Shown here in pieces: positions 10,604 through 43,946 of a stretch of DNA of 46,581 nucleotides. Positions within the stretch are counted from its first letter, which is position 1. Every line of letters begins with the position of its first letter. Source of the stretch: a virus; the IMG/VR virus record IMGVR_UViG_3300008050_000080, positions 1 to 46,581 of that record; one strand, 5' to 3'. A program made the position numbers and the translations under genes. The notes beneath the pieces were generated by a model. That model did not search any database and was not told the origin of the DNA. It was given only the letters and a program-made list of their open reading frames with translations.

Positions 10604-10999
10604 TTAACCAATTTTGATTGCTTGGTCTGTGGGATTCATAGACTCAGGCTTCTTGATATTAATGGTAAATACGCCGTCGACACATGACGCTGAAATATCT
10701 TCTGTCTTGGTGTCCCGTGCAACGGTCCAACTCCACGACTTCTTTGACAGCCAACGAACATCCTCTTTGTTTACAATCAGGCTGAGCTTATTGCCTCTAA
10801 GATTCAGAACAAAATCACTACGCTTCAACCCGGGAACTGGAATCGCAATGTCCCAGCCGTCTTTGTTCTCTGAAGTTTCTTCACCAAGCAGTGTTTCAAC
10901 AGCAGACTTGGCCTCGTTAAACAGCGGCCTCATTCCACCAAAAACCTCGTTAAGTTCTGTTTCCAAATCCCTACCAATACCATAACCAACTTTCCACAT
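10604..10999 (-). CDS. small heat-shock protein, Hsp20 family
   Basis: A 131-aa protein with an alpha-crystallin domain from about residue 48: DGWDIAIPVPGLKRSDF, then NKLSLIV, a Trp-rich loop and DGVFTINIKKPE near the end. The family holds unfolding proteins in an ATP-independent way. The N-terminal helix-rich arm (about 45 residues) is short. The start follows TTAGGAG. It is first in the operon after a strong extended -10 promoter. Confidence 0.88.
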   Translation of the reverse strand: MWKVGYGIGRDLETELNEVFGGMRPLFNEAKSAVETLLGEETSENKDGWDIAIPVPGLKRSDFVLNLRGNKLSLIVNKEDVRWLSKKSWSWTVARDTKTEDISASCVDGVFTINIKKPESMNPTDQAIKIG

Positions 11000-13814: not shown

Positions 13815-15383
13815 TTAATCCTCTACAATTGCGTGGTTAGTGCTAATAAGCGTCGATACGACCGACACAGCATTCCTTAGAGCAGTGCAAGTTACACTAA
13901 CCGGATCAACAATGCCAGATTCTAGCAAGTCAACCACCTCACCTGTAGAGAAATCATACCCCAAATTGTCATCAATGTCAACAATCTTTTGTTTTACAAG
14001 GTCTGCGGACATATCCGCGTTCTCGGCAATCTTACAAATGGGGGCAGCGGCTGCTTTTTTGACCACATTAAACCCAAACATTTCATTATCAGAAATATCT
14101 TCTGGTGGAGATAGATCGGCTGCTGCTCGATATAACGGGATGCCACCACCGCCATGAATGCCATCCGTTTGGGCGGCGTGTACAGCCTCCAGCGCATCTT
14201 CAATGCGGTGTTTTTTCTCAATCATTTCAATCTGAGAATGGGCTCCCACTTTAATAACTGCGACTCCCGACAAAAGGCTAGAAATTCTTTCTTGAATCCT
14301 TTCACAGATGTTTATGTCGTCTTCTGTTCTTATCTCTTCCCTCAGAAGTTCAATGCGTTCCTCAACAAGGTCATACTTACAATCACCACCGGCAATTGTT
14401 GTTTTGTTCTTGGAAATTTCAATAGTCTTAGCATTACCCAAGTCAGACAACTTAATATCACTGATGAGCGCTCCACCCTCTCTTGTAACAAACTTTGCGC
14501 CGACAGACAGGGCAAGATCAGACAGCAATTGTCGGCGCTCTTGTCCATACTTTGGAGCCTTAATCGCTACAACCTTCATTGTTCCGCGAATCGCATTTAA
14601 GATAAGAGCACTGAGGATCTTCTTTTCAAAGTCCTCTGCAACAATCACAAAAGGCTTGCCGTCTCGGGCAACTATCTCTAGAAGCGGGAGCATTTCTTCA
14701 AGGTCTAGTTTTCTGTCTGTAACAAACAAAAGACAATCCTCAAACTTAATAGCCTTCTTTCTCTCATCTGTGATGAAAGACTCGGACGCATAACCAGCAC
14801 CAAATGAAAATCCCTCAACAATGTCCAAATAAGTTTTGGCAGTTCTTGAGTCTTCAATACTAATGGCACCATCTTTGCCAATCTTATCAATGGCTTCCGC
14901 AATCAGACGCCCGATGGATTTATCTCCGTTGGCCGAAATTGCGGCAACATGCTCAACATCATCTTTGCTGGTAATGGGCCGGCTACCCTCTCGGATAGTC
15001 TCAACAATCTGCTCACATGCAAGGTCCATACCCCTCTTTAGATCAATCGGTCGGATTCCAGCAGTTAGAAACTTCTGAGATTCTTTATACAATGCAGCAG
15101 CCAATACAATTGAGGTGGTTGTTCCGTCTCCTACGGAGTCGTTCGTTAACGAAGCAACTTCTTTGATTAGTTCTGCGCCAACTGAGGTAAAGTGCCCGGG
15201 TACTGACATAAATTTACTAATAGTTACGCCATCTTTTGTGATAACTGGTGGTCTGTCCTTGCTTTTGAGAAGCACGTTTCTGCCTCCAGGTCCAAGCGTT
15301 GCAGACACGTATTCAGACAGGTCTTCAATGCCTTTAGATAATTTAGAATGCAGCTCTGCATCCTTAATATATTTCTTACTCAT
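13815..15383 (-). CDS. groEL: GroEL-like chaperonin (Hsp60)
   Basis: A 522-aa group I chaperonin. Visible family blocks are ATLGPGGRNVLL (about residues 29-40), ITKDGVTISK, VGDGTTTS (nucleotide binding, about 85-92), then the apical domain, and HGGGGIPLYRAA in the returning equatorial domain. It is slightly shorter than E. coli GroEL and lacks the C-terminal Gly-Gly-Met tail. No groES gene is adjacent; a weak candidate lies at 25950-26279. It lies among presumptive late genes, suggesting folding of virion proteins. Confidence 0.95.
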   Translation of the reverse strand: MSKKYIKDAELHSKLSKGIEDLSEYVSATLGPGGRNVLLKSKDRPPVITKDGVTISKFMSVPGHFTSVGAELIKEVASLTNDSVGDGTTTSIVLAAALYKESQKFLTAGIRPIDLKRGMDLACEQIVETIREGSRPITSKDDVEHVAAISANGDKSIGRLIAEAIDKIGKDGAISIEDSRTAKTYLDIVEGFSFGAGYASESFITDERKKAIKFEDCLLFVTDRKLDLEEMLPLLEIVARDGKPFVIVAEDFEKKILSALILNAIRGTMKVVAIKAPKYGQERRQLLSDLALSVGAKFVTREGGALISDIKLSDLGNAKTIEISKNKTTIAGGDCKYDLVEERIELLREEIRTEDDINICERIQERISSLLSGVAVIKVGAHSQIEMIEKKHRIEDALEAVHAAQTDGIHGGGGIPLYRAAADLSPPEDISDNEMFGFNVVKKAAAAPICKIAENADMSADLVKQKIVDIDDNLGYDFSTGEVVDLLESGIVDPVSVTCTALRNAVSVVSTLISTNHAIVED

Positions 15384-17061: not shown

Positions 17062-17387
17062 AAAATCACATCCAAATCTTCTTCTAGAACATCATAAATC
17101 TCACTAAGTTCTTGGGGAGATATTTCGAACATATCGTTCACCTTTCTGCCCCTGTCTCGTAGCCTAATATTCTTCTTTCGAGCTGCCGCTTTTTGTATTT
17201 TGTATCTTTGTTTCAACTCGTCAATAAGATACAAAATTGCATCGTCTTGTTCAACATATAGTTTTACAATCTCTTCAAAAAAGGCAGTTTGGGGCAACTC
17301 ATCATACAAAATTCGTGCCTTAAATCTCATCAAAAGTTCTTTATGGACTGAGAACCTTGTGACTTTATGATCCTCTGGGACTTTCAT
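17058..17387 (-). CDS. ribbon-helix-helix-like protein
   Basis: A 109-aa protein. Residues 8-48 (VTRFSVHKELLMRFKAR...FFEEIVKLYV) have the strand-helix-helix length and polarity of a ribbon-helix-helix DNA-binding domain. A basic helix (KAAARKKNIRLRDRGRK) and an acidic tail follow. It lies between the IMPDH-like and sigma-like genes with 4-nt overlaps on both sides. DNA binding is inferred. Confidence 0.58.
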   Translation of the reverse strand: MKVPEDHKVTRFSVHKELLMRFKARILYDELPQTAFFEEIVKLYVEQDDAILYLIDELKQRYKIQKAAARKKNIRLRDRGRKVNDMFEISPQELSEIYDVLEEDLDVIL

Positions 17388-18484
17388 TGCCTGTTTTCCA
17401 AATATGTTGAACTCTCCACCATTCCAGCCTGTGTTTGTTCAATGAATTTGGCCTTCTTCCTTAATTGCTTGATATTTTTTGCTCCGCAATATGAGAAGCC
17501 GCTTCGGATGCCACGGTTCAGATCTTTTACAATGTTTTTTGCCGAACCCTTGTGAAGAACCTCGACGGAAATGCCTTCATAAGATGAATAAGATCCTTTG
17601 AAATCAATTTGAGCTTCTTTACTTGCCATGCCGCGATAGGTTTTGTACTTCATGCCATCTCTTACCACAAACTCCCCAGGGCTTTCGTTAGTTCCAGATA
17701 GAAGAGATCCCAAAATAACAAAATCAGCACCAGCAGCAAGAGCCTTAACAATACAACCCGAATTTTTAATACCACCATCAGCGATGATTTTTGCAGTTCT
17801 GTCTGATTTTGCACATTCAAATATTGTTTCAAGCCCTGGAATACCGAACCCCGTTTGTATTCTTGTAGAACAAATACCACTAGTTCCAATGCCACATCTA
17901 ACGCTATCAGCGCCCCAATCAGCCAAATCATTATAACCCTCCAGCGTTGCAACTGCTCCGGCCATGATATGAATGTCGGGACCAACCGCCTTTCTTATAT
18001 CTTTAATTGCTTCCTTCATCAAAACATGATGTCCGTGAGCTACATCAATACAAATTGCCTTGCATCCAGATTCAACAAGTGCTCGCGCCCTTTCAATGTA
18101 ATCCCCAGCAACTCCAACAGCAGCCATGCAATTTCTATACTTTTTTGAATACCTGCGAACAATTTCAGTCTGAGACTCAATCGTACAATATCTGTGGATA
18201 ATAGACCCGCAACCAGACTCATTCATAGACCAAGCCATATCAAGCCCTGTGACAGTATCCATCGAAGCTGCAAAGATCGGAAGATCGAAGTAGATATCCC
18301 TTCCTTCATCTAGAGCATTAGAAGTATTAATCTCCGATCTACTTCTAATGTCAGAGTATCTTGGAACTAACAGAACATCGTCATAGCAAATTGCCTTTTT
18401 CATTTTCACAACGCCCTCTTCTTTGTTTGAACTATTACCAAACTGAGATAGTTGTTTTCGATGCATGTCTAAATCATACGACAT
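17384..18484 (-). CDS. IMP dehydrogenase / GMP reductase family enzyme
   Basis: A 366-aa protein from the ATG at 18484, which follows AAGGAG at 7 nt; an earlier in-frame start at 18571 is rejected and one at 18403 is possible. A TIM barrel with CYDDVLLVPRYS, FAASMDTVTG, a phosphate-binding ADGGIK and GADFVILGS, and the catalytic loop GIGTSGICSTR with the active Cys. YRGMASKEAQ follows. There is no CBS pair, so the architecture is GMP-reductase-like; the loop chemistry does not settle dehydrogenase versus reductase. It would adjust guanine nucleotide pools. Confidence 0.88.
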   Translation of the reverse strand: MSYDLDMHRKQLSQFGNSSNKEEGVVKMKKAICYDDVLLVPRYSDIRSRSEINTSNALDEGRDIYFDLPIFAASMDTVTGLDMAWSMNESGCGSIIHRYCTIESQTEIVRRYSKKYRNCMAAVGVAGDYIERARALVESGCKAICIDVAHGHHVLMKEAIKDIRKAVGPDIHIMAGAVATLEGYNDLADWGADSVRCGIGTSGICSTRIQTGFGIPGLETIFECAKSDRTAKIIADGGIKNSGCIVKALAAGADFVILGSLLSGTNESPGEFVVRDGMKYKTYRGMASKEAQIDFKGSYSSYEGISVEVLHKGSAKNIVKDLNRGIRSGFSYCGAKNIKQLRKKAKFIEQTQAGMVESSTYLENRQ

Positions 18485-18758
18485 CTTCATTCTCCTTGAT
18501 TTTCTGCACCAGAGACTCTGCTCTTCCAAAACATTCTGGACAATAAAGGCGAACCTCGTCTTTCTTAACAAACACGCGCCAACTCATTGCCATTTCTCTG
18601 TTTGTCTTGTCATAATCTTTGTTACAAACAGTACAATTGTCTGGTATGCGGTTAAACATATTCATCTTATTTTTAATATTTTTAGCAATTTCTTTTTTAT
18701 AATTGCCCATAAAAGACTTAGCCCTATTCCTTCTAATTTTTCTTAATTGATTACTCAT
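18474..18758 (-). CDS. small zinc-binding-like basic protein
   Basis: A 94-aa protein, strongly basic for the first 35 residues (MSNQLRKIRRNRAKS), then CTVCNKDYD and YCPECFGR, two CxxC knuckles 30 residues apart. This fits a zinc ribbon. Its stop overlaps the start of the IMPDH-like gene. Function unknown. Confidence 0.65.
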   Translation of the reverse strand: MSNQLRKIRRNRAKSFMGNYKKEIAKNIKNKMNMFNRIPDNCTVCNKDYDKTNREMAMSWRVFVKKDEVRLYCPECFGRAESLVQKIKENEDVV

Positions 18759-20764: not shown

Positions 20765-23700
20765 CTAGGTCAGCAACTTAAAATTGTGTTTTATAGATCT
20801 CGACGAAAAGCCCCATTTATCATTGTGTTCCAATTTGGCAATGTATGGCTTATTAAGTTTTATGCTGTCAGACATTGGTTTGATCCCCCAACATTTGATA
20901 TCATTTTCTTTGTTCGTCGCATCAATAACCTTTAGAATCCAATAGGTTTTGCCATGCTTTGTCTCTTTCACGATGACTTCTTTGGGAATAAACCATGCGA
21001 TTTTAAGCTTGTTGTCCCACTCACCCAGAGCAGGAATATTAAGCTTCTCAAATTTATGAAGAAGCTCGTCTTCAATAACAAGTTCAAGAGGATAAACCCC
21101 CGTCAAGTCAGAAATATAGCAAATCTTTTCTGACAATGAAAAATCTCCCTCTTCCTTATAAAGCTCAATGTTTTCAAGGAACTTCTTTTTTGTCTTAGCT
21201 CTGTCGACAGCTACGGCAGACCAAAACGACTTCAGACCAGTAAACCTGTTGTCAACCAAACAGTTCAAAGCTTGGCTACGGCAGAGAACATCAAGAGCTT
21301 TCTTGTTGAGCTTGCTGTACACAATGTTTTCATTGAACAAAAAGCCTTCGACATCTTCGAAAGGACGATTCAATAGGATTTGATCAATAGCTTTGTCGCC
21401 AAGACCTTTAATGGCAGTAAGGGGTTGGATCAGCGTCTTACCATCTTCAGAGATTTCCCACGTTCTGCCAGAGCTATTGATATCAACTCTTTTGAGGTTG
21501 TACCCAAAATTCTTAGCAAGGTTCACAGCCTTGGCTTTGCGTTTCTCTGGCTCTTTGTCCAAGAAAGCAGCCATCCACTCAGCTTCGAAGTGATAAGCCA
21601 GCCACGCGCACTGGAACGAAATGATAGAGTATCCTGTAGCGTGAGCAAGGTTGAAACCATAACCACTGAAGAACTCCATTGTTTGCCATAACGCATTTGC
21701 ATCAATCTTTGGCATTCCTTTCTCAAGGCATCCGTCGATGAACTTGCTGTAAATCTTCTTCTTTTGTTTTTCCTTCTCTCCGGTGCCTTTCTTCGTCAAA
21801 AGCTTGCGTAGTTTGTTACCTTCATCCAGTGAGATATCCTTACCAAGCTCGTTGGCAAGCATTGCAATCTGCTCTTGGAAAATCAACTGTCCGTAAGTTC
21901 CCTTAGTAACTCTCTTGATTTCCTTATTAAGATATGAGACACTATTCTTGTCGCCTTTCGCTTTAACATACAGCCTGTCAACCTTGGCCGATAGCGGCCC
22001 CGGTCTAAAGATTGATGTCACTGCCGACAAATCAGTGAGATTGTTGGGCTTTGCCAGCTTACAGAAGTTCTGCATACCAGACTCAGTGAACTGAAAGATT
22101 CCTGCGAATTTGCCCTTGTGAAAGATCTTTTTGTAAATTGCACGTTCGTTCACTTCGAGAATGTCTGGATGCAAATGGTCTGCATAAAATTCACGCACAT
22201 CCTCAAAGGATGGATTTGTAACATCGTAATGTCTTTTAAGAATGTGTCGAATACACTCGTCAATCATTTGCAGGGTTGAAAGGCCAAGCAAATCAAATTT
22301 AATAAACCCAAGCGGCTCAAGGTGGCGAACGTTTTGCCCCTCACTCCATGGAGTCTGAACGGTCCCGCCACTGTTAATTAGCGGCATGTTTTCATTAAGA
22401 CTGTCTGCAATCAAAACGCCGCCAGCGTGGCGGCTGACGGAGCGAACCTGTCCCTGCAATACTCTAACGTGTTCCTTAACTTCCGGGTGGGCATTGAGGA
22501 AGTTCTGTAAAGAACTAGAATACTGCATAATCTCTTCAAAAGTCGGCACATACACGCCAGCCTTAATCCCGTGGGCTGCCTTAGCCTTTGGAGTCGCCTC
22601 ATACAGCATAGACTTAGTGACCTTATTCACCTCTGAGTATGAAATATCATAATACTTTGAAATGTCTTTAATCAACGAGCGTAGTTGCAAGGTGTTGTAG
22701 TTGGAAATCGGAACGACATTGTTCTCTCCCCACTTCGCAACAAAGTGTTCTGTCAGGCCAATTCTGTCTGAAACGTCATAATCAATGTCAGGATATCCAC
22801 TGCTTTCGTCCTTAGACAAAAACCGACTGAACAATAGGTTGTTCTTGATCGGATCTACCTGTGTGATCTCCAGCAAATAAGCCACAAGCGATGCGGCGGC
22901 TGAGCCGCGAGCGGGGCCTACCAACATAAGCTTTTGAGCTTCATCTGAAATCTCTTTCATTGTTAGGAAATATTTCGAAAAGCCCCTCTTGAAAATCGTA
23001 TCAAGTTCCAGCTGTAGCCTATCCCGATATTTCTTGCCCGTGATACCGCGAGCCTGCATCGCAACTTCACAATGAGATTTCAGTGTGTTATCAGCAGAAG
23101 ATAGATCATCGCAGATAAAGCTAGGAAGCTTGACTGACGTAGCCAAGTCGTAATCTTCAACCACGTTATGTGCAATATTATGGGTCTCCACGATGGATCT
23201 CTTAACAAAGTCATCGTCGTATACAGCACCACACATTTCTGAATAAGTTTTGTAGGCTTCCCACATTTGGTCGCCATTTTTAGGATATAGTTCATAATCA
23301 AGCTCTGATCGGTCGTTGGGAAGTGGTCTATCTTCCCAATCCTTCTTCTTGCCCATCCACCCAAGCTTCTTATACATTTCCCGGCTCTTAAACAGCTCGG
23401 GTCGTGGATAGTGGGCATCGGCGGTGGAAATTACTTTGATTCCAAACTCATTACAAACTTGGATAACGTACTTATTAATTTCATGTTGCTCTGGAATCTT
23501 ATTCCACTGGATCTCTCCATAGAAGCGATCACCAAAAATCTCAAAAAACTGGCCGGCGATTTTGCGGACACCATTCAGTATTGCAGTTTCGCCATTTTCT
23601 CGATTTTTCCAAAACTCCTTGGCGAATGGACCTCCCATGCAAGCGCTTGTGACGATAACCCCTTCACTGTGCTGTCTTAGCATGTTAAGATCAATGCGCG

Positions 23701-24181
23701 GATATCGATAGAAGTTGGGCGCCTTATAAGACTCAGACACCATCTTGAAGATGTTGTGTAGTCCTTTGAGATTCTTCGCAATCAGAAGCAAATGAGCACG
23801 CCTATTAAGGATATTTTTGGTAGACTTTTTTGTCTCCGCTTCATCCTCAACAGAAAGCTCAACAGACTCTTTCTTTGATTTCTTCTTTTTTTCCTGGGCC
23901 TTGTCGAAATCAACCTGCCAGTCCGCAACAGAATCAATGAAATAAGCCTCAATACCATAAATCGGCTTGAAGGTTTTGCCCTCTTCGTTCATTTTCTTTG
24001 CATGAAGGTATTGATATACCAGCCCATTCATGTTGCCATGATCGGTGATCGCAAGGGCGTTCATGCCATTCTCATGGGCATAATCCATATGATCTTGCGG
24101 ATATCCAATAGCGTCAAACACGCTGAATGTGGTATGATTGTGCAGCCCAACAAATGGGATGCTTGGTTTCGTGGTACTCAT
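20765..24181 (-). CDS. dnaE: DNA polymerase III alpha subunit (family C, DnaE type)
   Basis: A 1138-aa protein, the length of bacterial DnaE. The N-terminal PHP domain has LHNHTTFS (residues 13-20), ALAITDHG and DAHYPRPE. The family C palm has GPARGSAAAS and PDIDYDV (about residue 464) with the catalytic Asp pair. Further blocks are HAGGVLI, KFDLLGL, IFQFTESGMQ, FRPGPLS, QEQIAMLA and FNLAHATGYS. The C-terminal part includes a helix-hairpin-helix-like IKGLGDKAI and an OB-like region. The start follows TAGGAG. It is a replicative polymerase of bacterial type; proofreading would have to come from PHP or another subunit, since no DnaQ domain is seen. Confidence 0.95.
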   Translation of the reverse strand: MSTTKPSIPFVGLHNHTTFSVFDAIGYPQDHMDYAHENGMNALAITDHGNMNGLVYQYLHAKKMNEEGKTFKPIYGIEAYFIDSVADWQVDFDKAQEKKKKSKKESVELSVEDEAETKKSTKNILNRRAHLLLIAKNLKGLHNIFKMVSESYKAPNFYRYPRIDLNMLRQHSEGVIVTSACMGGPFAKEFWKNRENGETAILNGVRKIAGQFFEIFGDRFYGEIQWNKIPEQHEINKYVIQVCNEFGIKVISTADAHYPRPELFKSREMYKKLGWMGKKKDWEDRPLPNDRSELDYELYPKNGDQMWEAYKTYSEMCGAVYDDDFVKRSIVETHNIAHNVVEDYDLATSVKLPSFICDDLSSADNTLKSHCEVAMQARGITGKKYRDRLQLELDTIFKRGFSKYFLTMKEISDEAQKLMLVGPARGSAAASLVAYLLEITQVDPIKNNLLFSRFLSKDESSGYPDIDYDVSDRIGLTEHFVAKWGENNVVPISNYNTLQLRSLIKDISKYYDISYSEVNKVTKSMLYEATPKAKAAHGIKAGVYVPTFEEIMQYSSSLQNFLNAHPEVKEHVRVLQGQVRSVSRHAGGVLIADSLNENMPLINSGGTVQTPWSEGQNVRHLEPLGFIKFDLLGLSTLQMIDECIRHILKRHYDVTNPSFEDVREFYADHLHPDILEVNERAIYKKIFHKGKFAGIFQFTESGMQNFCKLAKPNNLTDLSAVTSIFRPGPLSAKVDRLYVKAKGDKNSVSYLNKEIKRVTKGTYGQLIFQEQIAMLANELGKDISLDEGNKLRKLLTKKGTGEKEKQKKKIYSKFIDGCLEKGMPKIDANALWQTMEFFSGYGFNLAHATGYSIISFQCAWLAYHFEAEWMAAFLDKEPEKRKAKAVNLAKNFGYNLKRVDINSSGRTWEISEDGKTLIQPLTAIKGLGDKAIDQILLNRPFEDVEGFLFNENIVYSKLNKKALDVLCRSQALNCLVDNRFTGLKSFWSAVAVDRAKTKKKFLENIELYKEEGDFSLSEKICYISDLTGVYPLELVIEDELLHKFEKLNIPALGEWDNKLKIAWFIPKEVIVKETKHGKTYWILKVIDATNKENDIKCWGIKPMSDSIKLNKPYIAKLEHNDKWGFSSRSIKHNFKLLT

Positions 24182-24189
24182 ATTTTCTC

Positions 24190-24396
24190 CTAATACTGGG
24201 TGGGCGCTGACAGTTCTTCTACTTCGTTTTCCAGATCCATAACTTGTCGCTGAAGATCTTCTAGTTCGCCATTTTTGAATTCAGTTAGAGCCTCGACGAG
24301 TTCCCTCTGATCTATTGAAAGTTCAATCCAATTCAATGCCCATCCCATTCGAACTAATAGATTAACCGGTAGATTTTTATATGCCTCTTCACTCAT
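24190..24396 (-). CDS. small coiled-coil protein
   Basis: A 68-aa protein; residues 28-62 (ELVEALTEFKNGEL then QVMDLENEVEELS) form an acidic coiled coil. It lies 8 nt before DnaE and overlaps the upstream gene by 8 nt. It could be a polymerase accessory peptide, but only position suggests this. Confidence 0.62.
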   Translation of the reverse strand: MSEEAYKNLPVNLLVRMGWALNWIELSIDQRELVEALTEFKNGELEDLQRQVMDLENEVEELSAPTQY

Positions 24397-25108
24397 CGTT
24401 TAACTCCACAACGTTAGCAACTGGTGCCTTACAAAATATGTCAGGCTTGTCCAGCTTATTATTTGAGGCCATATACTCTGCGTAGTCTGGCCATGACTCG
24501 ATCTCATTGTACCACGGAGCAGGCGTTGGGTCAACACCAGAAAAATCTAGCTTGTTGTATACGTCAGTGAAGGACAAATTGCCCGTCAATCGTCTCTTTC
24601 CCAACTCACAATTTATTTCCCTCATGTCTTCATACGAAAAAGAAAAGCCCATCTTGTGGCCGGTTTTGATACTATTCCCGTCATGCTCAATGTAGAATTT
24701 ATTCTCATTTTTTATATCTTGTCTATGTTGTCTGACTAGCTCAGGTTCGTATAATCCCATGGGAAATGCCGCATAATATGAACTTGGAACGGTGTAACTT
24801 CCAACACCAAAGGCAACTCTAGTTGCATAAATTGCTGAATTAATAATACCCCAGGCATCCCCGTATCTGGCTGTTCTATACCTCGCCAACTCTGGAACAT
24901 AATAAATGTAAATGCGGCGCTTGCTCTCGGAAGGCCAGCGATCCATAACCCTGTTTAAATACAAAGGATCTTCAACGTAGTCGCCTATCCTTTTCTTGAT
25001 AAGCTTCTGCCAATCATCGTTGACTGTTATCCAAATTGTATGACAGCCCGCCATGGCGCACTCATACACGGCGCGCTCTAAAAGTGTGTAACCTTCACCA
25101 ATTGGCAT
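24389..25108 (-). CDS. nucleotidyltransferase-like protein
   Basis: About 240 aa from the ATG at 25108, directly after the upstream stop at 25117. The frame stays open to 25237 but only TTG starts exist there (25153, 25237), with weak ribosome sites. MPIGEGYTLLERAVYECA then GCHTIWITV resembles the first two units of the sugar-nucleotide pyrophosphorylase fold (a GT-A-like Rossmann sheet). DPLYLNRV and many Tyr residues follow. The N-terminal strand of that fold may lie before the ATG, favouring the TTG start at 25153. Function uncertain. Confidence 0.55.
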   Translation of the reverse strand: MPIGEGYTLLERAVYECAMAGCHTIWITVNDDWQKLIKKRIGDYVEDPLYLNRVMDRWPSESKRRIYIYYVPELARYRTARYGDAWGIINSAIYATRVAFGVGSYTVPSSYYAAFPMGLYEPELVRQHRQDIKNENKFYIEHDGNSIKTGHKMGFSFSYEDMREINCELGKRRLTGNLSFTDVYNKLDFSGVDPTPAPWYNEIESWPDYAEYMASNNKLDKPDIFCKAPVANVVELNDE

Positions 25109-25116
25109 CAGGCAAT

Positions 25117-25977
25117 CTACCCAATCAAATCCGAAATTGTGCGGTGAATGTGGCAATGATATGCAGCCTGCGACATATTTGGCGTTTTTGTCGCGTCTGC
25201 CTCTCTGTCCAAAATATATTTGCTTTCTTCTTTGCAAAACTGTTCTATATCCCTGGCGTCATAGATGACGCCCTCTGTCTCCAAACAAATGTCCTTGTCT
25301 TGATTGAATACTGTTCTCTGCTTATGTTCTACTTCTAAACCCCTTATAAAGTAAGGTAGATTTGTCCTTTTTATAAGATCTGCGACTAAATATCTCAAAG
25401 CGACCACTCCGTATTCGAACTCCAACAGATTTTCCTCTTTTATCAGAGATTTAACCAGTATCTTGTTGTGTTTGTTGAAGTAAATCTCTTTTGCGAAGTC
25501 GTCGTCCCCATAAATCAAGAACAAGTTGTGTTTTTTAGTAGTAACTTCACACAGATCGTAGACCAGTCGTGGACTATAATCGACAGAATCAATCTCTAAC
25601 CCAGAAACCATAATAGTGTTAAACACTCTCAGCTCAGAGAAGGGAATGATTTTGCGGCTTCTACCTAGTTTTATAAACCTGTCTTTAATACTAACCCGAG
25701 TGGAGGCTGGCCAAAGCATCCCAGACAGAGACAATATCCCAACAAGATACTCCCTCAATTCACTAATGTTTCTGCCGAACTGGACAACACCCTTTGATGT
25801 TCTTTTGAAGACCGCTTTGTTTTCAAAGGGCAATTGTCCAAAACTCAACTTGGCCGGCAAGCACTCATGTTTGTTCAGCTTCTTATCGTGTGTATATATT
25901 AGCGGCACACAGTGAATGTAGGAATACAATAACGATTGTATGTTATTCCCTACAGCAATGGGTCCGCGATTGCACAT
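25117..25977 (-). CDS. hypothetical protein
   Basis: A 286-aa protein, MCNRGPIAVGNNIQSLLYSY, then CVPLIYTHD. The N-terminus (IAVGNNIQSLLYSY) has the length of a beta-alpha unit, but no clear Rossmann GxGxxG is present. Its C-terminus would overlap the next gene only if that gene uses a TTG start. It overlaps the upstream gene by 28 nt. It may work with the nucleotidyltransferase-like neighbour; no family assigned. Confidence 0.6.
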   Translation of the reverse strand: MCNRGPIAVGNNIQSLLYSYIHCVPLIYTHDKKLNKHECLPAKLSFGQLPFENKAVFKRTSKGVVQFGRNISELREYLVGILSLSGMLWPASTRVSIKDRFIKLGRSRKIIPFSELRVFNTIMVSGLEIDSVDYSPRLVYDLCEVTTKKHNLFLIYGDDDFAKEIYFNKHNKILVKSLIKEENLLEFEYGVVALRYLVADLIKRTNLPYFIRGLEVEHKQRTVFNQDKDICLETEGVIYDARDIEQFCKEESKYILDREADATKTPNMSQAAYHCHIHRTISDLIG

Positions 25978-26912: not shown

Positions 26913-27122
26913 CTATAAAATAATATACACACCTTCGTAGATGCGACTTTCAAACTTTTCAATAGACTCGCCCCACACAGATTCATGGCTACCCCACCAG
27001 GGGGTAATCCAGCGAGTCTGGACACATCCATCTAAAATGCCGAGAATGATCCCGTAAAAGGGCTTTCTGTGATCTGACGAACTGCCCGGCATTTGTACCA
27101 AATCGCCAACTTCGTATTTCAT
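26913..27122 (-). CDS. small SH3/KOW-like protein
   Basis: A 69-aa protein, MKYEVGDLVQM, then YGIILGIL and VQTRWITP. A clear member of the local family, here placed at the end of the lysis-region operon. Start and stop of neighbours touch at 27122. Confidence 0.76.
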   Translation of the reverse strand: MKYEVGDLVQMPGSSSDHRKPFYGIILGILDGCVQTRWITPWWGSHESVWGESIEKFESRIYEGVYIIL

Positions 27123-28192
27123 TAATAATCGAATAGAACTAAAGTATTGGGGTCTTGAGAAAGAGCCCCTATGTTCATGTAGCGAACATCTTTGACCAGC
27201 CGCTTGGCGTCTGTATAGTTATAGACATCTGTAGATTTAAGTATCTTAATCAGTTCTCGTATAAGGCTCATCGCCTGCTTCATGTTGAGAATTTTAAGAT
27301 TGCCTAAAACCCTTTCTAATGTTTGCTCTTCCATAGAAAGCAGCGATCTTTGCAGCGATCTTTGGAAGGCATCCGTTTCATCGTGCTCAGTAGCGTCAAC
27401 CATTCCTGGTGGATACATTTTCCTGACCAATGCGTCTTTAATATTAAGGATTTCATCATTCGCATCATAAGATTTGCCATAAAACAACTCATCCATTGTT
27501 ATAAGCTTTGGCATTTCAACGTAATACAGGTCTTCAGGTGTGTTAGAAAATGTGATTGTTCCATAATCATAGATCATTAATGTGCTTTTGTGTGCTGACT
27601 TGGTGTTGAACAGATCATCCACCGACTTCTCATGCTTTTTTGCGTCAGCAGTGCCTGAATAATCAACCATCGCCTGTTCGGCGTCCCAAGAACCATAAGA
27701 TATTTTGAGGACATGCCCGTTTGTTAGCTCAAATACGGCCCCAAAATACCCGCCGCCCAAATATTTCTTAATTTTGACTTCATTGAAAATCTTGTTTTCC
27801 CTGACCATTAGCCCGATTTGTTGGGTGAGGGTTCCTATCTTCCTTGATGCAGCAGCGATAGAACTCTTCTCGACCATAATCTCTCTGAGTCTTTCAGTTT
27901 TTGCTAAAATCTTAAAATTATGATTTTGAGTGCTATTCATCCCTCCACGATCAAGGACATGTTGCAGAATATCCGGGTCCGACCGGCCAACTGTGTCTCT
28001 TTTGTGGTTTAGCGGCATCTTGGTGGCGGCCATAGCCAAATCTGCCCAATCTGCGTTAACGGGCTGTTTTTGTTCGTCTTTCCAGTCGGGATCTCCAGGC
28101 TTTGGTTTCAAGTTGGAGCTGTCCTCCGGATCCCAATCCCTGTGGACCTCAGTTAAAAACCTGCGCCAATCTTTAAAACGTTTGTCCATCAT
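27122..28192 (-). CDS. protein-kinase-fold phage protein
   Basis: A 356-aa protein. The N-terminal 100 residues begin FKDWRRFLTEVHRDWD, a style common in phage virion-associated proteins. A kinase-like domain follows: glycine loop LGGGYFGAVFEL (145-156), VLKIS with the ATP-binding Lys (K163), EMPKL as hinge, KDVRYMN with D335 and N340 spaced as in the catalytic loop, and LVLFDY with D355 as the DFG-equivalent. The chain stops right after it, so no activation loop exists. It may act as an atypical kinase or an ATP-binding structural protein. It is coupled to the endolysin gene by a 4-nt overlap. Confidence 0.68.
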   Translation of the reverse strand: MMDKRFKDWRRFLTEVHRDWDPEDSSNLKPKPGDPDWKDEQKQPVNADWADLAMAATKMPLNHKRDTVGRSDPDILQHVLDRGGMNSTQNHNFKILAKTERLREIMVEKSSIAAASRKIGTLTQQIGLMVRENKIFNEVKIKKYLGGGYFGAVFELTNGHVLKISYGSWDAEQAMVDYSGTADAKKHEKSVDDLFNTKSAHKSTLMIYDYGTITFSNTPEDLYYVEMPKLITMDELFYGKSYDANDEILNIKDALVRKMYPPGMVDATEHDETDAFQRSLQRSLLSMEEQTLERVLGNLKILNMKQAMSLIRELIKILKSTDVYNYTDAKRLVKDVRYMNIGALSQDPNTLVLFDY

Positions 28193-36551: not shown

Positions 36552-37970
36552 TCAAGCCGATCCAGTATTTTCAATCTCTTCAGTTTTGGCCTTTTCGGGA
36601 TCAGCCTTTTCAGCTGCCTTAAGCTCTTTGTACTTCTTCTTGAGATTGTCTAGTTGTGACTTGGCTGGATCTTTGTTGATTGTTTCTTCCGTAGAGTCTG
36701 CTGTGATGCGAATTTCTGATTTTGCCGTATCCATATAAATAGAGAATACAGACCCGTCAACGCCAGACCTATTCTTAGCAATGAACAGCCTTCCCGTTTT
36801 ATTCTTTTTATCTTCAATAGTTCGAGACAGTGTAAAAATCAAATGAGCTGGCCAGCATTTGCTATAAGCTTCTGCAATCGATTCCATTGTAATCAACTCG
36901 GCGTTCAAGCCAGAGCGATTTGTTTGGCTTGCAGTCATAATTGGACACTCATATTCTTCAGCAATTGCAATAAGTTCCTCGTTGATAAGCTCAAGGTCGT
37001 GCCGCTTCTCTGCCCCGTACTTAATAGGCTTCACCAAGTCAGCATAATCAACCAAGATAAGGTCGATCTCCTGGCCCTTGTTCCTCAACTTCTCAAGATG
37101 ATTGCGAATTGTGTTAGTGGTAGCCTTGCGTGGCGGGTACTTTTTGACAGTTAACAGCCCTTTAATGTTCTGGATGTTTTCTTTAACCAAATCTTTAAAC
37201 TCATGAAGGTCGTCAAACTTGGTCTTTGTGTTGAGACTATCATACCGTAAGGCGACATCTTCTGCGGACATTTCTAGTGTATAATGTACTACATTTAGAC
37301 CCTTCTGAATAGCTGTCGCGCCAAGGTGAACGAGAACGTGGCTTTTACCACCACCAGTGGCCGCAATAACGACTCCAAGCTCGCCCTTTCCCATGCCGCC
37401 TCTAGTAATGTTGTCAATGTCTTCCCAGCCAGTGGTTACGGCGTTGCGTGTTTTATGAGTGTACCTCTTTTCAAAATCCTTAATGTAATCATGACCAAAA
37501 TTGTTCTCTTGACCAAGAGTCAAAGCTTTATTAATTAAGCCTGAGATTTCATCGAATGATGACTTGTTTAGCAACTCAACAGACTTAATGATAGCTTCTT
37601 TGAGCTTTTGTTTTCTACAAAAGTCCAAAGCCGTATCTTTGATGTATTCTCTGCCATCAATGTCTTGATTGGCATATATTCTAACAAGGAAGTCGCGGAC
37701 TTGCTTCTGGACTATATCTCCTTCACCACCTATGCCACTCTTGACAATAATGGCAAGCGTCTGCAAGCTCGGATGGATCTTATACTCTTCTTTGTGGCCA
37801 TAAACAACTCTTGTCAAAACTTGTAATGATTTGCTCTCAAAAAAGCTCATGTCAAGCACTTCGCCGATCTGATCTGCGAACTGCCTATCAAGAACGATGA
37901 GTTTCACAAGATTCTCTTGAAACTTGATACCAAACTTACTAAAATCTACTTTATCTGCTGCGTTTAACAT
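36552..37970 (-). CDS. dnaB: replicative DNA helicase, DnaB-like
   Basis: 472 aa from the ATG at 37970 after CAGGAAAAT. A helical N-terminal domain (residues 1-150) is followed by the RecA-like motor: Walker A AATGGGKSHV, YTLEMSAEDVALRYDSL, Walker B LILVDYADL and ASQTNRSGL, then IAKNRSG with the arginine finger region. A charged tail of about 60 residues ends the protein. It unwinds the fork with DnaE. The start overlaps the SH3-like gene stop. Confidence 0.93.
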   Translation of the reverse strand: MLNAADKVDFSKFGIKFQENLVKLIVLDRQFADQIGEVLDMSFFESKSLQVLTRVVYGHKEEYKIHPSLQTLAIIVKSGIGGEGDIVQKQVRDFLVRIYANQDIDGREYIKDTALDFCRKQKLKEAIIKSVELLNKSSFDEISGLINKALTLGQENNFGHDYIKDFEKRYTHKTRNAVTTGWEDIDNITRGGMGKGELGVVIAATGGGKSHVLVHLGATAIQKGLNVVHYTLEMSAEDVALRYDSLNTKTKFDDLHEFKDLVKENIQNIKGLLTVKKYPPRKATTNTIRNHLEKLRNKGQEIDLILVDYADLVKPIKYGAEKRHDLELINEELIAIAEEYECPIMTASQTNRSGLNAELITMESIAEAYSKCWPAHLIFTLSRTIEDKKNKTGRLFIAKNRSGVDGSVFSIYMDTAKSEIRITADSTEETINKDPAKSQLDNLKKKYKELKAAEKADPEKAKTEEIENTGSA

Positions 37971-38161
37971 ATTTTCCTGTAATGTTGATCGACGAACCGA
38001 ACGTTGTGTAATCCATATTGCTTGCAAACCATGCGCGGGCCAATCTCCCGAAACTCATATTCATATCGTTCAGCCGAAGCAACAACAACCACAAGATAAT
38101 ATGGATCAGCTAGCTCATCATGTTCTTTGTGTATAAACATATCTCCGACTTCAAACTTCAT
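37964..38161 (-). CDS. small SH3/KOW-like protein
   Basis: 65 aa from the ATG at 38161: MKFEVGDMFIH, then YYLVVVVAS and a GLHNVRFVD end. A clear family member set between exonuclease and helicase genes, overlapping both. Confidence 0.76.
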   Translation of the reverse strand: MKFEVGDMFIHKEHDELADPYYLVVVVASAERYEYEFREIGPRMVCKQYGLHNVRFVDQHYRKIC

Positions 38162-39101
38162 CTGCAATCCGATTCATGCAAGCAAACAAATCTGTCATTC
38201 TAATCTCTGGGAACCCATCTTTGATCATCATCTTCTTAATCTCGGTCTTCGACAGTTGTTTCGGATAGTTCTCAATCATTGATTTGATCTTCGTTCGTAA
38301 CTGTATGGAAACTAGCGGCGAATAAAGCTGCATCATCTTGTAGTTCTGCTTAAGTTTGTCTTCCTCTTCTATCAAGCTTGTGTAACATGATAGATCAGAG
38401 TCAACTTCTTTGCAATACTTAATTAGATCTGAGACTGTAACATCTTTATCTTCTTTGAGGATCGGAACTCTCTTTGAGATAGTTTTCAAACCAATTCCTT
38501 TAACACCCTCAATGTTGTCACTCTTGTCGCCAACAGCTGCCCTTGCCAGTGCAAAATTCTTTGGATGAATATCAAACTCTTCTACAATCCGGCGCTTATT
38601 ATAAAATTTCTTCTGAATTGGTCTGTAAAGTATTGTTTCATCGTCCAAAAGCTGATAAAAATCCTTGTCTGAAGATATGATTATCTTTTGTGCTCTAGTA
38701 AACTCCTGACAGGCAACTGCAATTAGATCGTCAGCCTCGACACCCTCTGCGATCAATTGAATCACAGGCATCTCATCAATATAGTCAAACAACTTGAGTT
38801 GTTGCTCGATCATGTTCTGGTGTTCCTCGTCTGGTGTAAGCATCGAGTGATTTCTGTTCAATCTCAGGGGTGCCCGGCCCGCTTTATACCCTTTGTCCAT
38901 AGCTTTGCGCTTCTTCGAACCGCCCGCACCATCCCAACAAATAACAATGCGGTCTGGCTTCATATCTCGACATAACTTTTGGAAAATCTTAAGGAACCCC
39001 TTTAGTCCTCCAATTGGTTTGCCATTTGCTGATAAACTTGGGTCCACAATGTGTGCTCTGTAGAACGCATTGGTTCCATCAATAACTAATACTCTCTTCA
39101 T
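38151..39101 (-). CDS. 5'-3' exonuclease / flap nuclease (PolI N-terminal type)
   Basis: A 316-aa protein with VLVIDGTNAFYRAH, then FQKLCRDMKPDRIVICWDGA, EGVEADDLIA and ISSDKDFYQLL, and the helix-hairpin-helix GDKSDNIEGVKGIG. These are the metal-binding acids and DNA-binding parts of the PolI 5'-nuclease/T4 RNase H group. It likely removes RNA primers and flaps. It stands free, while the matching polymerase domain is a separate gene at 42750-43946. Confidence 0.92.
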   Translation of the reverse strand: MKRVLVIDGTNAFYRAHIVDPSLSANGKPIGGLKGFLKIFQKLCRDMKPDRIVICWDGAGGSKKRKAMDKGYKAGRAPLRLNRNHSMLTPDEEHQNMIEQQLKLFDYIDEMPVIQLIAEGVEADDLIAVACQEFTRAQKIIISSDKDFYQLLDDETILYRPIQKKFYNKRRIVEEFDIHPKNFALARAAVGDKSDNIEGVKGIGLKTISKRVPILKEDKDVTVSDLIKYCKEVDSDLSCYTSLIEEEDKLKQNYKMMQLYSPLVSIQLRTKIKSMIENYPKQLSKTEIKKMMIKDGFPEIRMTDLFACMNRIADEV

Positions 39102-39765: not shown

Positions 39766-39900
39766 CTATTTCCCTTGCCCTTTGTACTTCTTCTTATACA
39801 GCTTGCTCGCCTTGCTGTGTGGGAATTTAGTAAATCGCCCATTGCCTTGAGACGTTTTCTTGCGCTTACCATCAGACTTCTTATTTTTTGAACTTGCCAT
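39766..39900 (-). CDS. 44-aa highly basic protein
   Basis: An ATG at 39900 inside the last codons of recA opens 44 codons: MASSKNKKSDGKRKKTSQGN, then RFTKFPHSKASKLYKKKY and TAG at 39766. AAGAAG precedes it. About two-fifths of residues are Lys or Arg. It might be a nucleic-acid-binding peptide. It overlaps recA by 20 nt. Confidence 0.6.
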   Translation of the reverse strand: MASSKNKKSDGKRKKTSQGNGRFTKFPHSKASKLYKKKYKGQGK

Positions 39901-41017
39901 CTTCTTCTCCGTCTACATCGTAGAAACTACTGGCGTCTCCCAGACGCTTATCAAACTTAAGGACCACTTCCTCTTCCATCAACTCAATGACTCTATTGTA
40001 GAACTTCTTATCCTTAAGCTTTTCAACCCAGTCTGCTTGTCTGAAGTTCGGTGATTGCGTTCCATCTGCGTAGTGCAACACATTCCAAGCTCCAACCGTC
40101 ACATGTTCTGAAGATTTAACTGCTTCTAGCCAGCTTTCCTGGTCACAAATTTTAACATTGTCTGAGTCACCCCAAATAATCTTAAAAGTGCTCTGCCTTC
40201 CTTGCGTTCCAAAGCGACTCTTCTTCAGTTGAGCCCGCAACTCTGTGCCGACCCTGAACCCTTTGTCGTCCAAGAGAAAGCTAGCCTTTCCTTTGCGATC
40301 TGTTAGCCAAATCCTCAATGAATATGAGTATGTCAAAGCCATTCCACCGGGTGTCTTGTAAGGGGTTGTCAAAGCCTCTGACGGAGTTCTTGCAATGTTT
40401 GTTTTAAGCTGATTCAAGACAAGCAGCGTTGCGTTCCTATTGGCGATGGGCTGAATAAGTTTCGACAATCCCTTTGCAAGCACGCGAGACTTCACAGCAA
40501 CTGAGCTGTTTGGATTGAAGTCGCCCTCAACATCTGAAACTGCTGGCGTCAAAGCCAAGCTATCCCAAATGAATAACATCTGGTTCTCGCTAACAAGCAA
40601 TGTTTCAATAGTTTCCAACACAAACTCGACAGATTGTGCCTGAATATAAAGCAACTTGCTCAAATCGCAGCCAGCGTTCTGCAAGAATGACGGATCAATA
40701 GCAGACTCGGAGTCAAAATACACTACGTCAATGTCCATCTTCTGTGCATTGGCTGCAACCTGCGCCGCCATATAGCTTTTGCCAGATGACTCTGTTCCAG
40801 CAAGTTCTGAAATTTTGCCGACTGGAACTCCAGCCCATTTGCCCCTTGCGATGATACCGTCCAGCCACTTGGAACCTGTTGGGATCCATTGCTTAACCTC
40901 TGTCGGATTTTCATCCTCCAAATTGAACGCAATATCAAAGCCCGCGTTCTTATTGATGATCTTCCGCATGTCGTCCATGCTCATCCGACCTTCAGTTTGT
41001 TTCTTCTTCTTAGCCAT
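39881..41017 (-). CDS. recA: RecA recombinase
   Basis: A 378-aa protein. Walker A is GTESSGKS (about 74-81 region), then VVYFDSESAID, the Walker B LFIWDSLA, and LLVLNQLKTNI followed by YKTPGGMALTYS, corresponding to RecA loop L2 and flanks. The N-terminus is Lys-rich. It catalyses strand exchange and repair. Co-transcribed with ssDNA-binding protein, separated from it by a 13-bp hairpin. Confidence 0.92.
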   Translation of the reverse strand: MAKKKKQTEGRMSMDDMRKIINKNAGFDIAFNLEDENPTEVKQWIPTGSKWLDGIIARGKWAGVPVGKISELAGTESSGKSYMAAQVAANAQKMDIDVVYFDSESAIDPSFLQNAGCDLSKLLYIQAQSVEFVLETIETLLVSENQMLFIWDSLALTPAVSDVEGDFNPNSSVAVKSRVLAKGLSKLIQPIANRNATLLVLNQLKTNIARTPSEALTTPYKTPGGMALTYSYSLRIWLTDRKGKASFLLDDKGFRVGTELRAQLKKSRFGTQGRQSTFKIIWGDSDNVKICDQESWLEAVKSSEHVTVGAWNVLHYADGTQSPNFRQADWVEKLKDKKFYNRVIELMEEEVVLKFDKRLGDASSFYDVDGEEDGKFKK

Positions 41018-41883: not shown

Positions 41884-41911
41884 ATTATACCAGATTACGC
41901 TGGCCCGTCAA
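41884..41911 (-). promoter_or_regulatory. sigma-70-type promoter for ssb-recA
   Basis: Minus strand TTGACG (41911-41906), 16 nt, TATAAT (41889-41884), 61 nt before the SSB start. It sits just past the stop of the FtsZ-like gene. Confidence 0.85.
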
Positions 41912-41919
41912 TATCTTTT

Positions 41920-42756
41920 TTACTCTTGTACGAAATTAGTATGAACTTCTAGGAAAATGTAATCGTCTTCGTAGGTTGACGGTGTTACGCTGTAAGACAC
42001 CGACATGGCATCTGACTCTATAGCTTGCTCAGATAATTCAACAATCTTATCTAAGAAATTGTTCTTTTCTTTAAGTGTTTGTTCTTTGATCAGGTAGAAA
42101 AAGTTCTTTTCTCTTATGTTTTCCAAGTCAAAGAAATATTTCTCTTCTTGGTTGACCAAATCAAATGCACCCACGGTTGAAATTCTATTAATCTCGTGTG
42201 GTTCCGAGATGTTATTAATGAGAGAGGTGTTCATACCCTTGATGTGTTGAACCATATTGATGTGATCCCTAATAAATTCATTAATCCTACTAAAGTATTC
42301 ATACAGTGACATGGGACCAATCATCTTGGCCACATTCTCGTTTGAAACCAAGCACAACTTCTTCAACAGCCCCGCTCTGGCATATTGTTGCAACACATGA
42401 AAGACTGCTCCCTCTCTAAGCTTAGCTTCATTTGCCATAAACTTACTGCTCGGTCGTACATAAACCACAGTAACGTTGAAAGACTTTAATCTCTCCAGCG
42501 TTTGAAGAATGCCTCCGCTTGTGACTCCAGAGCCAGCGCAAACAAAAATAATCTCCCTTCCAATAATCTCTTTTTTTAAACGCACATACTTCGGTGTCTT
42601 TCGTTCTGCCTGTTCCATGCTTGTGCATTTCGGGAAGTTGTGACAGCGATCCCCAGATCGCCCAACGTCAACATAATGAACTTTATACTGAGGGTATATC
42701 TCAAATTGTTCTGCTATCTTACAGCCTGCTGTTCCAAAACCAATAACGTTTAACAT
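41920..42756 (-). CDS. FtsZ/tubulin-like GTPase
   Basis: A 278-aa protein. GFGTAG (6-11) is the first nucleotide loop. FVCAGSGVTSGG (71-82) corresponds to the tubulin signature GGGTGxG. VVYVRPSSKF and LCLVSNENVAKMIG then YFSRINEFIRDHI match the next FtsZ strand, the Asn of helix H7 and the core helix. SEPHEI (184-189) sits where FtsZ has DFADV, with Glu at both catalytic acid positions. It is shorter than FtsZ and has no C-terminal host-binding peptide that I can see. It may polymerise with GTP and position DNA or heads. It overlaps the polymerase gene by 7 nt. Confidence 0.7.
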   Translation of the reverse strand: MLNVIGFGTAGCKIAEQFEIYPQYKVHYVDVGRSGDRCHNFPKCTSMEQAERKTPKYVRLKKEIIGREIIFVCAGSGVTSGGILQTLERLKSFNVTVVYVRPSSKFMANEAKLREGAVFHVLQQYARAGLLKKLCLVSNENVAKMIGPMSLYEYFSRINEFIRDHINMVQHIKGMNTSLINNISEPHEINRISTVGAFDLVNQEEKYFFDLENIREKNFFYLIKEQTLKEKNNFLDKIVELSEQAIESDAMSVSYSVTPSTYEDDYIFLEVHTNFVQE

Positions 42757-43946
42757 ATCTTCTTAAGTTCCTTGTAGTTCTTGCCGCAACTGACGTTCAC
42801 TTTGAACTTTCCGAATCGGGTGTCTTGAAAGATAGACATAATCTCTTTAATATGCTTGCTGTCTTTCTGAGCCAAATCAATTATAACTGCGTCATGATTC
42901 ATGAATGATATGTATGATTTTTTGTCTCTCAAAAACTTGTTCAATTCTACAGTCTTAGTTGTACACAAATCAGCGGCGGTTGATTGTACAATGTGATTCA
43001 AGCATCGATCTTCGTCGGACGCTATCTCTCTATTATACACGGTTCTGACAATTTTGCCATCCCAATGATCGCTTCGGACTTTATCTGTGTGAAACAATTT
43101 GCTGAAGTCTGCGTCGTGCCTTACTTTGTATTTTTCTTTGTCGGATCTATACAGCCAACCAAACGTAGCTTCTTTTGTTTCTGCTCTTGTAATCTTGTTG
43201 TTGAACAGCTTCTTTCTGGTGTGTTCGTGAATGTCCTGTTCTGGCTGGTCCTGTCCAGCCAACGACATGAGGACTCTAAGCTCACAACTGTTATAATCTA
43301 TTTCCATCAACCAATCGTTGTTGGGTTTCAGAACATCTCTGAATCTTTTGTCAAATGTCAACACGGGAAAGCTCAATTTGGTCGTTGTAAGGCGGCCCGT
43401 CTTTGTCCCAAAGATATCATACTTGACAAGAGCGTCAGCCTTTAGAACTGTCTTAAAAAATGTCTTATTTTTCCCGAGCGCTCTATGTTCATTCAACTTC
43501 TTGTAATCTATGTTCAGTTTGTGGCTCTTGATCTCCTCCGCAAGCATGTGAAGTTCCAGAAGAAAATCATAATTCTCAGGTTTATCATAAGTCTTCAAAA
43601 CGTATGCAATAATGTCCGACTGTACCTTCATGTACTGCATCAAAAAGCTCTCAGGAATCAGGTCATAAAAGCAATGTTCTCGTAGGGATACCTTCGCGGT
43701 GTAGAAGCTCTTGTAGAGCGCTCTGAGCCGTGTATACGCCTCGTCCCATTCCGGCTTCATGTGGGATGGGCACAAGCCCTCCAGCGGCGTGCCAGAGCCA
43801 TACAAGTAGGCGCACGGACCTTGCAATGGGCGGCCATGGACGTACCTCCACGTACCGCTGGCGTCGGCAGGCACTTCATCAGTTAGCTTGCCGTCACAAT
43901 ATACACTTTTACAGAATTCTTTATTGTCAATTACTTGATAATTCAC
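42750..43946 (-). CDS. DNA polymerase family A (polymerase domain only)
   Basis: A 398-aa protein. GTKTGRLTTT (180-189), motif A MEIDYNSCELRVLM (214-227, catalytic D217), motif B RAETKEATFGWLY (254-266, R254, K258), VQSTAADL and motif C NHDAVI (350-355, D352). Motif C is HDA instead of the usual HDE. There is no 3'-5' exonuclease domain; the first 180 residues are a reduced thumb. The 5'-nuclease is a separate gene. It may fill gaps or replace primers beside the family C polymerase. Confidence 0.88.
   Translation of the reverse strand: MNYQVIDNKEFCKSVYCDGKLTDEVPADASGTWRYVHGRPLQGPCAYLYGSGTPLEGLCPSHMKPEWDEAYTRLRALYKSFYTAKVSLREHCFYDLIPESFLMQYMKVQSDIIAYVLKTYDKPENYDFLLELHMLAEEIKSHKLNIDYKKLNEHRALGKNKTFFKTVLKADALVKYDIFGTKTGRLTTTKLSFPVLTFDKRFRDVLKPNNDWLMEIDYNSCELRVLMSLAGQDQPEQDIHEHTRKKLFNNKITRAETKEATFGWLYRSDKEKYKVRHDADFSKLFHTDKVRSDHWDGKIVRTVYNREIASDEDRCLNHIVQSTAADLCTTKTVELNKFLRDKKSYISFMNHDAVIIDLAQKDSKHIKEIMSIFQDTRFGKFKVNVSCGKNYKELKKIC

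Follow-up and report, generated by a model that had tools for sequence, protein, structure and literature searches.

The 46.6 kb IMG/VR virus record analyzed here (the window) encodes a compact tubulin/FtsZ-fold protein of 278 aa (P0001; 41920-42756, minus strand), which belongs to a new family within the tubulin/FtsZ superfamily and is neither a PhuZ nor an FtsZ. Its fold, family and operon position were established by computation, the fold as a predicted model. With regard to function, we tentatively favor a GTP-binding scaffold or filament serving phage replication, a reading that we regard as plausible but somewhat short of probable. The P0001 ORF is intact, with 278 codons and an ATG start. 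An end repeat was looked for in the window, and the genome is probably incomplete because none was found.

Homologs and predicted fold

Direct searches with P0001 named nothing in Pfam, PHROGs, NCBIfam, the PDB (by sequence), annotated phages (tblastn) or viral contigs (single-sequence scan), and scanning viral contigs with the neighboring polymerase alone also found nothing. The family was recovered through its other neighbor. An alignment (A1) of the gp32-like protein P0003 with gp32 of Microcystis phage Mel-JY01, Flavobacterium phage immuto and an uncultured phage retrieved 80 IMG/VR loci, most of which carry P0001 homologs upstream of gp32 (tblastn, E down to 1e-57). By profile search, compact tubulin homologs were found in 66 of the 80 loci, and in 64 of the 68 that extend 900 bases or more upstream of gp32. 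Family members are 270-300 aa long, share 25-37% identity with P0001 and occupy the same genomic place; because homologs this divergent share their position in 66 phage loci, the P0001 ORF and its landmarks lie far beyond chance. Fifty-six members were aligned (A3), and residue counts below are out of these 56. Pfam PF00091 did not match P0001 and matched six of its 56 relatives weakly (best E 0.054).

Among genome contigs a single compact-tubulin match was obtained (L184:2514-7873, from the WOR-3 MAG CP070664.1). This segment has the order polA, compact tubulin, gp32, RecA, and the ORFs flanking it contain N runs. It was rejected as a bacterial homolog, being a phage replication segment flanked by N runs, and appears to be a piece of phage DNA that was scaffolded into a bacterial genome. 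When E. coli FtsZ was searched against phages, it returned FtsZ at 37-99% identity to the bacterial protein, which we attribute to contaminating host DNA or to mis-filed contigs. The open-access literature searched, of which coverage was partial, yielded no account of a tubulin family in T4-like phages.

Modeling of P0001 from its single sequence gave a poor AF2 prediction (pLDDT 44); with alignment A3 as input, pLDDT reached 95.4 and pTM 0.93. The best Foldseek match of this model in the PDB was Bacillus cereus TubZ (4ei7, E 1.8e-13, TMq 0.73); every one of the 50 PDB matches listed was a TubZ or an FtsZ (E 1e-13 to 1e-11, TMq about 0.7). In the search of predicted viral structures, the first seven ranks were taken by FtsZ, PhuZ, tubulin or unnamed proteins, and the first non-tubulin fold appeared at E 4.7e-4. 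Model and matches together have the two-domain architecture of GTPase domain, core helix H7 and activation domain. The original prediction, made from the letters alone, had read the ORF as a compact FtsZ/tubulin-like protein and named structure prediction as a check, and it is this fold that the model returned. Profile comparisons pointed the same way. When A3 was run against 177,635 PDB sequences, FtsZ took ranks 2, 3 and 5 with scores not significant alone, in alignments that were collinear at T1 and across S5-H7, and hhalign of A3 with E. coli FtsZ or a canonical phage tubulin was likewise collinear and not significant alone. With the AF2 and Foldseek results and these collinear matches taken together, the predicted tubulin/FtsZ fold is well supported.

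It is highly improbable that P0001 is instead a generic Rossmann-type NAD/FAD protein misread as a tubulin. Both kinds of protein share an N-terminal GxGxxG, and TrkA_N and other Rossmann families give weak matches to some of the family members (best 8.8e-6, TrkA_N), but the TubZ/FtsZ structural match runs full-length with the C-terminal domain included, all 50 listed PDB matches are FtsZ or TubZ, and the FtsZ-type base-contact Asn residues are invariant. A Rossmann-enzyme identity was rejected on the fold search.

Probable nucleotide pocket, T4 and T7 loops, and C-terminus

The FtsZ/tubulin landmarks previously read from the sequence were all found, and in order: GFGTAG (T1), CAGSGVTSGG, SNEN (residues 138-141) and the H7-like SLYEYFSRINEFI (residues 150-162). 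The T1 loop IGFGTAG (residues 5-11; 42724-42744, minus strand) is collinear with FtsZ T1, with G6 and G8 present in 56/56 members and A10 in 48/56. The guanine pocket (42271-42342, minus strand) comprises N139, an aromatic residue at 155 and N159, the last in the H7-like helix. We take these to be the positions that contact guanine in FtsZ and tubulin structures, an equivalence drawn from the collinear sequence alignment with FtsZ residues 158-195. Because both Asn residues are invariant (56/56 each) and 55/56 members retain the base-stacking aromatic, the sequences indicate that guanine nucleotide binding is likely.

The elements associated with hydrolysis are less well preserved. The T4/tubulin-signature-like loop CAGSGVTSGG (residues 73-82; 42511-42540, minus strand) is eroded in most relatives: the signature GGGTG[ST]G is absent from T4 of P0001, which has AGSGVTSGG, and many relatives carry a VGSSYSSNYS-like loop, with one glycine left in 24/56. 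The T7-equivalent loop (42181-42204, minus strand) was placed by alignment and by the AF2 model. A Glu pair had been predicted in this catalytic loop, and E185 and E188 are indeed present in P0001; as a feature of the family the pair did not hold up, since both positions are acidic in only 8/56 relatives and the pair is largely peculiar to the P0001 sequence. Position 188 is acidic in 43/56 (35 with 188 alone) and position 185 in 16/56 (eight with 185 alone), and five members have neither acid. Residue 191 is basic and nearly invariant (R in 48, K in 7). In FtsZ, helix H8 follows T7 and precedes strand S7, whereas residues 182-191 of the P0001 model are coil, with no helix between the T7-equivalent loop and S7. 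Because the Glu pair is unconserved and H8 is absent from the model, ordinary tubulin-type GTP hydrolysis by the compact tubulin is doubtful.

P0001 stops one residue past Q277 and five residues past its last beta strand, in agreement with the earlier remark that it has no obvious C-terminal tail; its relatives continue for 1-12 residues after Q277. The FtsZ C-terminal linker and conserved peptide are absent from P0001, as are the C-terminal helix H11 and acidic tail of PhuZ. In PhuZ-type tubulins this helix and tail are ordered in the protofilament (PMC3678025), and the tail-based assembly mode of PhuZ would thus be unavailable to the compact tubulin. With T4 eroded, the T7 pair unconserved, H8 missing and no tail, the standard hydrolyzing longitudinal contact may be lost. 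Loss of catalysis does not exclude assembly, since filaments of the PhuZ catalytic mutant D190 are still GTP-dependent but non-dynamic (PMC4244570).

Operon context and possible function

Directly upstream of the compact tubulin gene lies a short family A DNA polymerase (398 aa; 42750-43946, minus strand; PF00476, 3e-16; phrog_17, 1e-19). The end of this polA-type ORF overlaps the P0001 start by 7 nt, confirming the overlap with a DNA polymerase gene noted in the original prediction. Downstream on the same strand follow a gp32-like single-stranded DNA-binding protein (P0003; 41086-41823; PF08804, 1.5e-15; phrog_1192, 3e-28) and, next in the operon, a RecA/UvsX-like recombinase (39881-41017; tblastn to phage RecA). 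The replication block further includes a 5'-3' exonuclease (38151-39101, minus strand; phrog_107, 8e-35) and a DnaB-like replicative helicase (36552-38027, minus strand; phrog_19, 2e-68). The gene order polA, compact tubulin, gp32 SSB, RecA is conserved among relatives. Between the tubulin gene and gp32, directly before the latter, the best hit of a promoter scan is a near-consensus sigma-70 sequence with an extended -10 (TTGACG-16-TATAAT; 41884-41911, minus strand; 11/12 matches); this consensus match suggests separate strong expression of the gp32 SSB.

Several other ORFs of the window were noted in passing. The same phage carries a DnaE-type polymerase III alpha subunit (20765-24181, 1138 aa) in addition to the short family A polymerase and the separate 5'-3' exonuclease. 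By eye, three ORFs read as a full-length GroEL-like chaperonin (13815-15383), a small heat-shock protein (10604-10999) and an IMP dehydrogenase/GMP reductase-like enzyme (17384-18571), the last of which would give a phage with a putative GTP-binding tubulin a guanine-nucleotide enzyme as well. A protein kinase-like ORF (27122-28192) matches phrog_15752 (protein kinase, inhibitor of host transcription; E 3e-5), and of two overlapping ORFs (24389-25237 and 25117-25977) the first reads as nucleotidyltransferase-like, with no PHROG match.

According to the scaffold reading, the compact tubulin would be expressed together with the phage DNA polymerase, gp32 SSB and RecA from one operon, would bind GTP through its conserved guanine pocket, and might assemble head-to-tail into a scaffold or filament that could organize the phage DNA during replication or the proteins that replicate it. 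Its GTP turnover would then be slow or atypical, given that the T4 glycines, T7 acids and helix H8, which drive hydrolysis in FtsZ and tubulin, are eroded. This reading is favored by the presence of the gene in 64 of the 68 sufficiently long loci, by the overlap of most compact-tubulin starts with the polA stop (49 of 55), and by the recurrence of the same polA-gp32 position across members just 25-37% identical to P0001. Genomic neighborhood alone does not prove a replication role, and the eroded T4 and T7 and missing H8 are fitted about as well by two alternatives.

The first, which we consider rather unlikely, is that the protein is a replisome accessory factor, i.e., a non-polymerizing tubulin fold that works with the short family A polymerase or with gp32 in response to GTP. 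Such a role would agree with the constant order polA-tubulin-gp32-RecA and with translational overlap with polA, as in 49 of the 55 relatives where it could be measured the compact-tubulin start overlaps the stop codon of polA, usually by 4 nt; yet overlapping genes do not show protein contact, and four loci (L033, L041, L052 and L079) carry 0.9-2.1 kb inserted between the compact tubulin and gp32. It would also be in line with T4 and T7 erosion, the missing H8, the absent tail, and E48, Q123 and R127, which are invariant in the family and were not matched to any known FtsZ function. On the other hand, a replication block of similar make-up lacks a compact tubulin in the cultured relatives Mel-JY01 and immuto.

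The second alternative involves another tubulin polymer. Near-complete contigs carrying the compact family are 186-196 kb long and encode a T4 gp23-type capsid gene. Chimallin, searched for by sequence (E up to 1), had no match in the 13 records searched, which come from the group or its relatives, and the positive control 201phi2-1 was found. As judged from these sequences, the phages are an uncultured T4-like group with no sign of the known 'phage nucleus'. The genome-positioning role once suggested for P0001 after PhuZ was not supported and stands as an analogy, with chimallin undetected in the relatives and the PhuZ-type tail absent from P0001. One clade encodes a second, canonical FtsZ-like tubulin of 378 aa with an acidic N-terminal extension (P0006; L091:1036-2172, minus strand; L138:6001-7137, plus strand). 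It is very highly conserved (88-100% identity among 80 loci kept of 167 IMG/VR matches), scores above the PF00091 cut-off and matches FtsZ structures at E 8e-9, and GGGGGTGSS and FDSKD (D267-x-x-D270) are invariant in its family (10/10 aligned). Its operon is separate from the replication block and includes an SbcCD-like fusion gene. All seven contigs >120 kb with P0006 also encode the compact tubulin. No canonical tubulin was detected in G001 (193 kb), G003 (147 kb) or G004 (186 kb), all of which carry the compact gene, and P0006 was not found in the window, itself a 46.6 kb fragment.

The compact protein could accordingly be imagined as a capping or poisoning tubulin with one usable longitudinal face, which blocks or regulates host FtsZ (stopping division) or the canonical tubulin of that clade. 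We judge this unlikely. A conserved nucleotide face combined with a degenerate T7/H8 face and the co-occurrence in 7/7 large contigs would fit, and small phage inhibitors of FtsZ have been described (lambda Kil, PMC3961180; T7 Gp0.4, PMC4944311; P1 Icd, PMC11897509). However, G001, G003 and G004 indicate that the canonical partner is not required, co-assembly with host FtsZ is unlikely at an identity of 9-14% to the FtsZ structures listed, and the gene sits in a replication operon rather than a host-takeover cluster.

Taken furthest, the scaffold reading would be that T4-like phages lacking a phage nucleus form a tubulin scaffold for replication, using a minimal tubulin that is defective in hydrolysis and linked to their DNA polymerase, and that in one clade it and the canonical phage tubulin act together as a two-tubulin cytoskeleton; as a whole, this picture is speculative and improbable. 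To our knowledge, characterized phage tubulins come from nucleus-forming jumbo phages (PhuZ) and TubZ partition systems. The compact family is separate from these, unnamed by Pfam, PHROGs and NCBIfam, and encoded within the central replication operon of a group of uncultured T4-like phages. This location suggests that a protein of the tubulin type may help organize virus replication in phages with no sign of the known phage nucleus. If true, the phage cytoskeleton extends beyond nucleus-forming phages. The family also illustrates the extent to which the tubulin fold can shrink with its guanine pocket kept, and offers a direct route to asking whether a tubulin can work without the usual GTPase machinery. 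In two-tubulin genomes, division of labor between the paralogs is testable.

Comparison with known tubulins

TubZ, the type III partition GTPase of Bacillus plasmids and phage c-st, is an element-encoded tubulin and the best PDB fold match of P0001 (4ei7). In contrast to TubZ, to which it is 16% identical, P0001 is only 278 aa long, lacks the C-terminal helix and tail, has eroded T4 and T7 loops, and is encoded among replication genes, with polA and gp32 as immediate neighbors and no par partner seen there. PhuZ and the phiKZ TubZ of Chimalliviridae share with P0001 a phage-encoded tubulin fold, as reflected in a BFVD match to PhuZ of phage Noxifer (E 1.4e-8). P0001 differs from them in lacking H11 and the acidic tail, which are part of the PhuZ filament (PMC3678025), and in its T7 acids, which are not conserved as a pair, and its phages differ from Chimalliviridae in having a gp23 capsid and no chimallin match. 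With FtsZ it has in common the fold (E about 1e-12), the T1 loop, the base-contact Asn pair with its aromatic, and the collinear order of these elements, but not GGGTGTG, a conserved DxxD, H8, or the C-terminal linker and peptide, and identity to the FtsZ structures listed is as low as given above. P0006, from the same phage group, contrasts with P0001 in its length of 378 aa, its intact signature and DxxD, and its own operon with an SbcCD-like gene. The compact tubulin is placed in the superfamily on its fold and guanine pocket, with the T4 signature absent and no Pfam match above cut-off, and it is set apart from PhuZ and FtsZ because on the features tested it belongs to neither.
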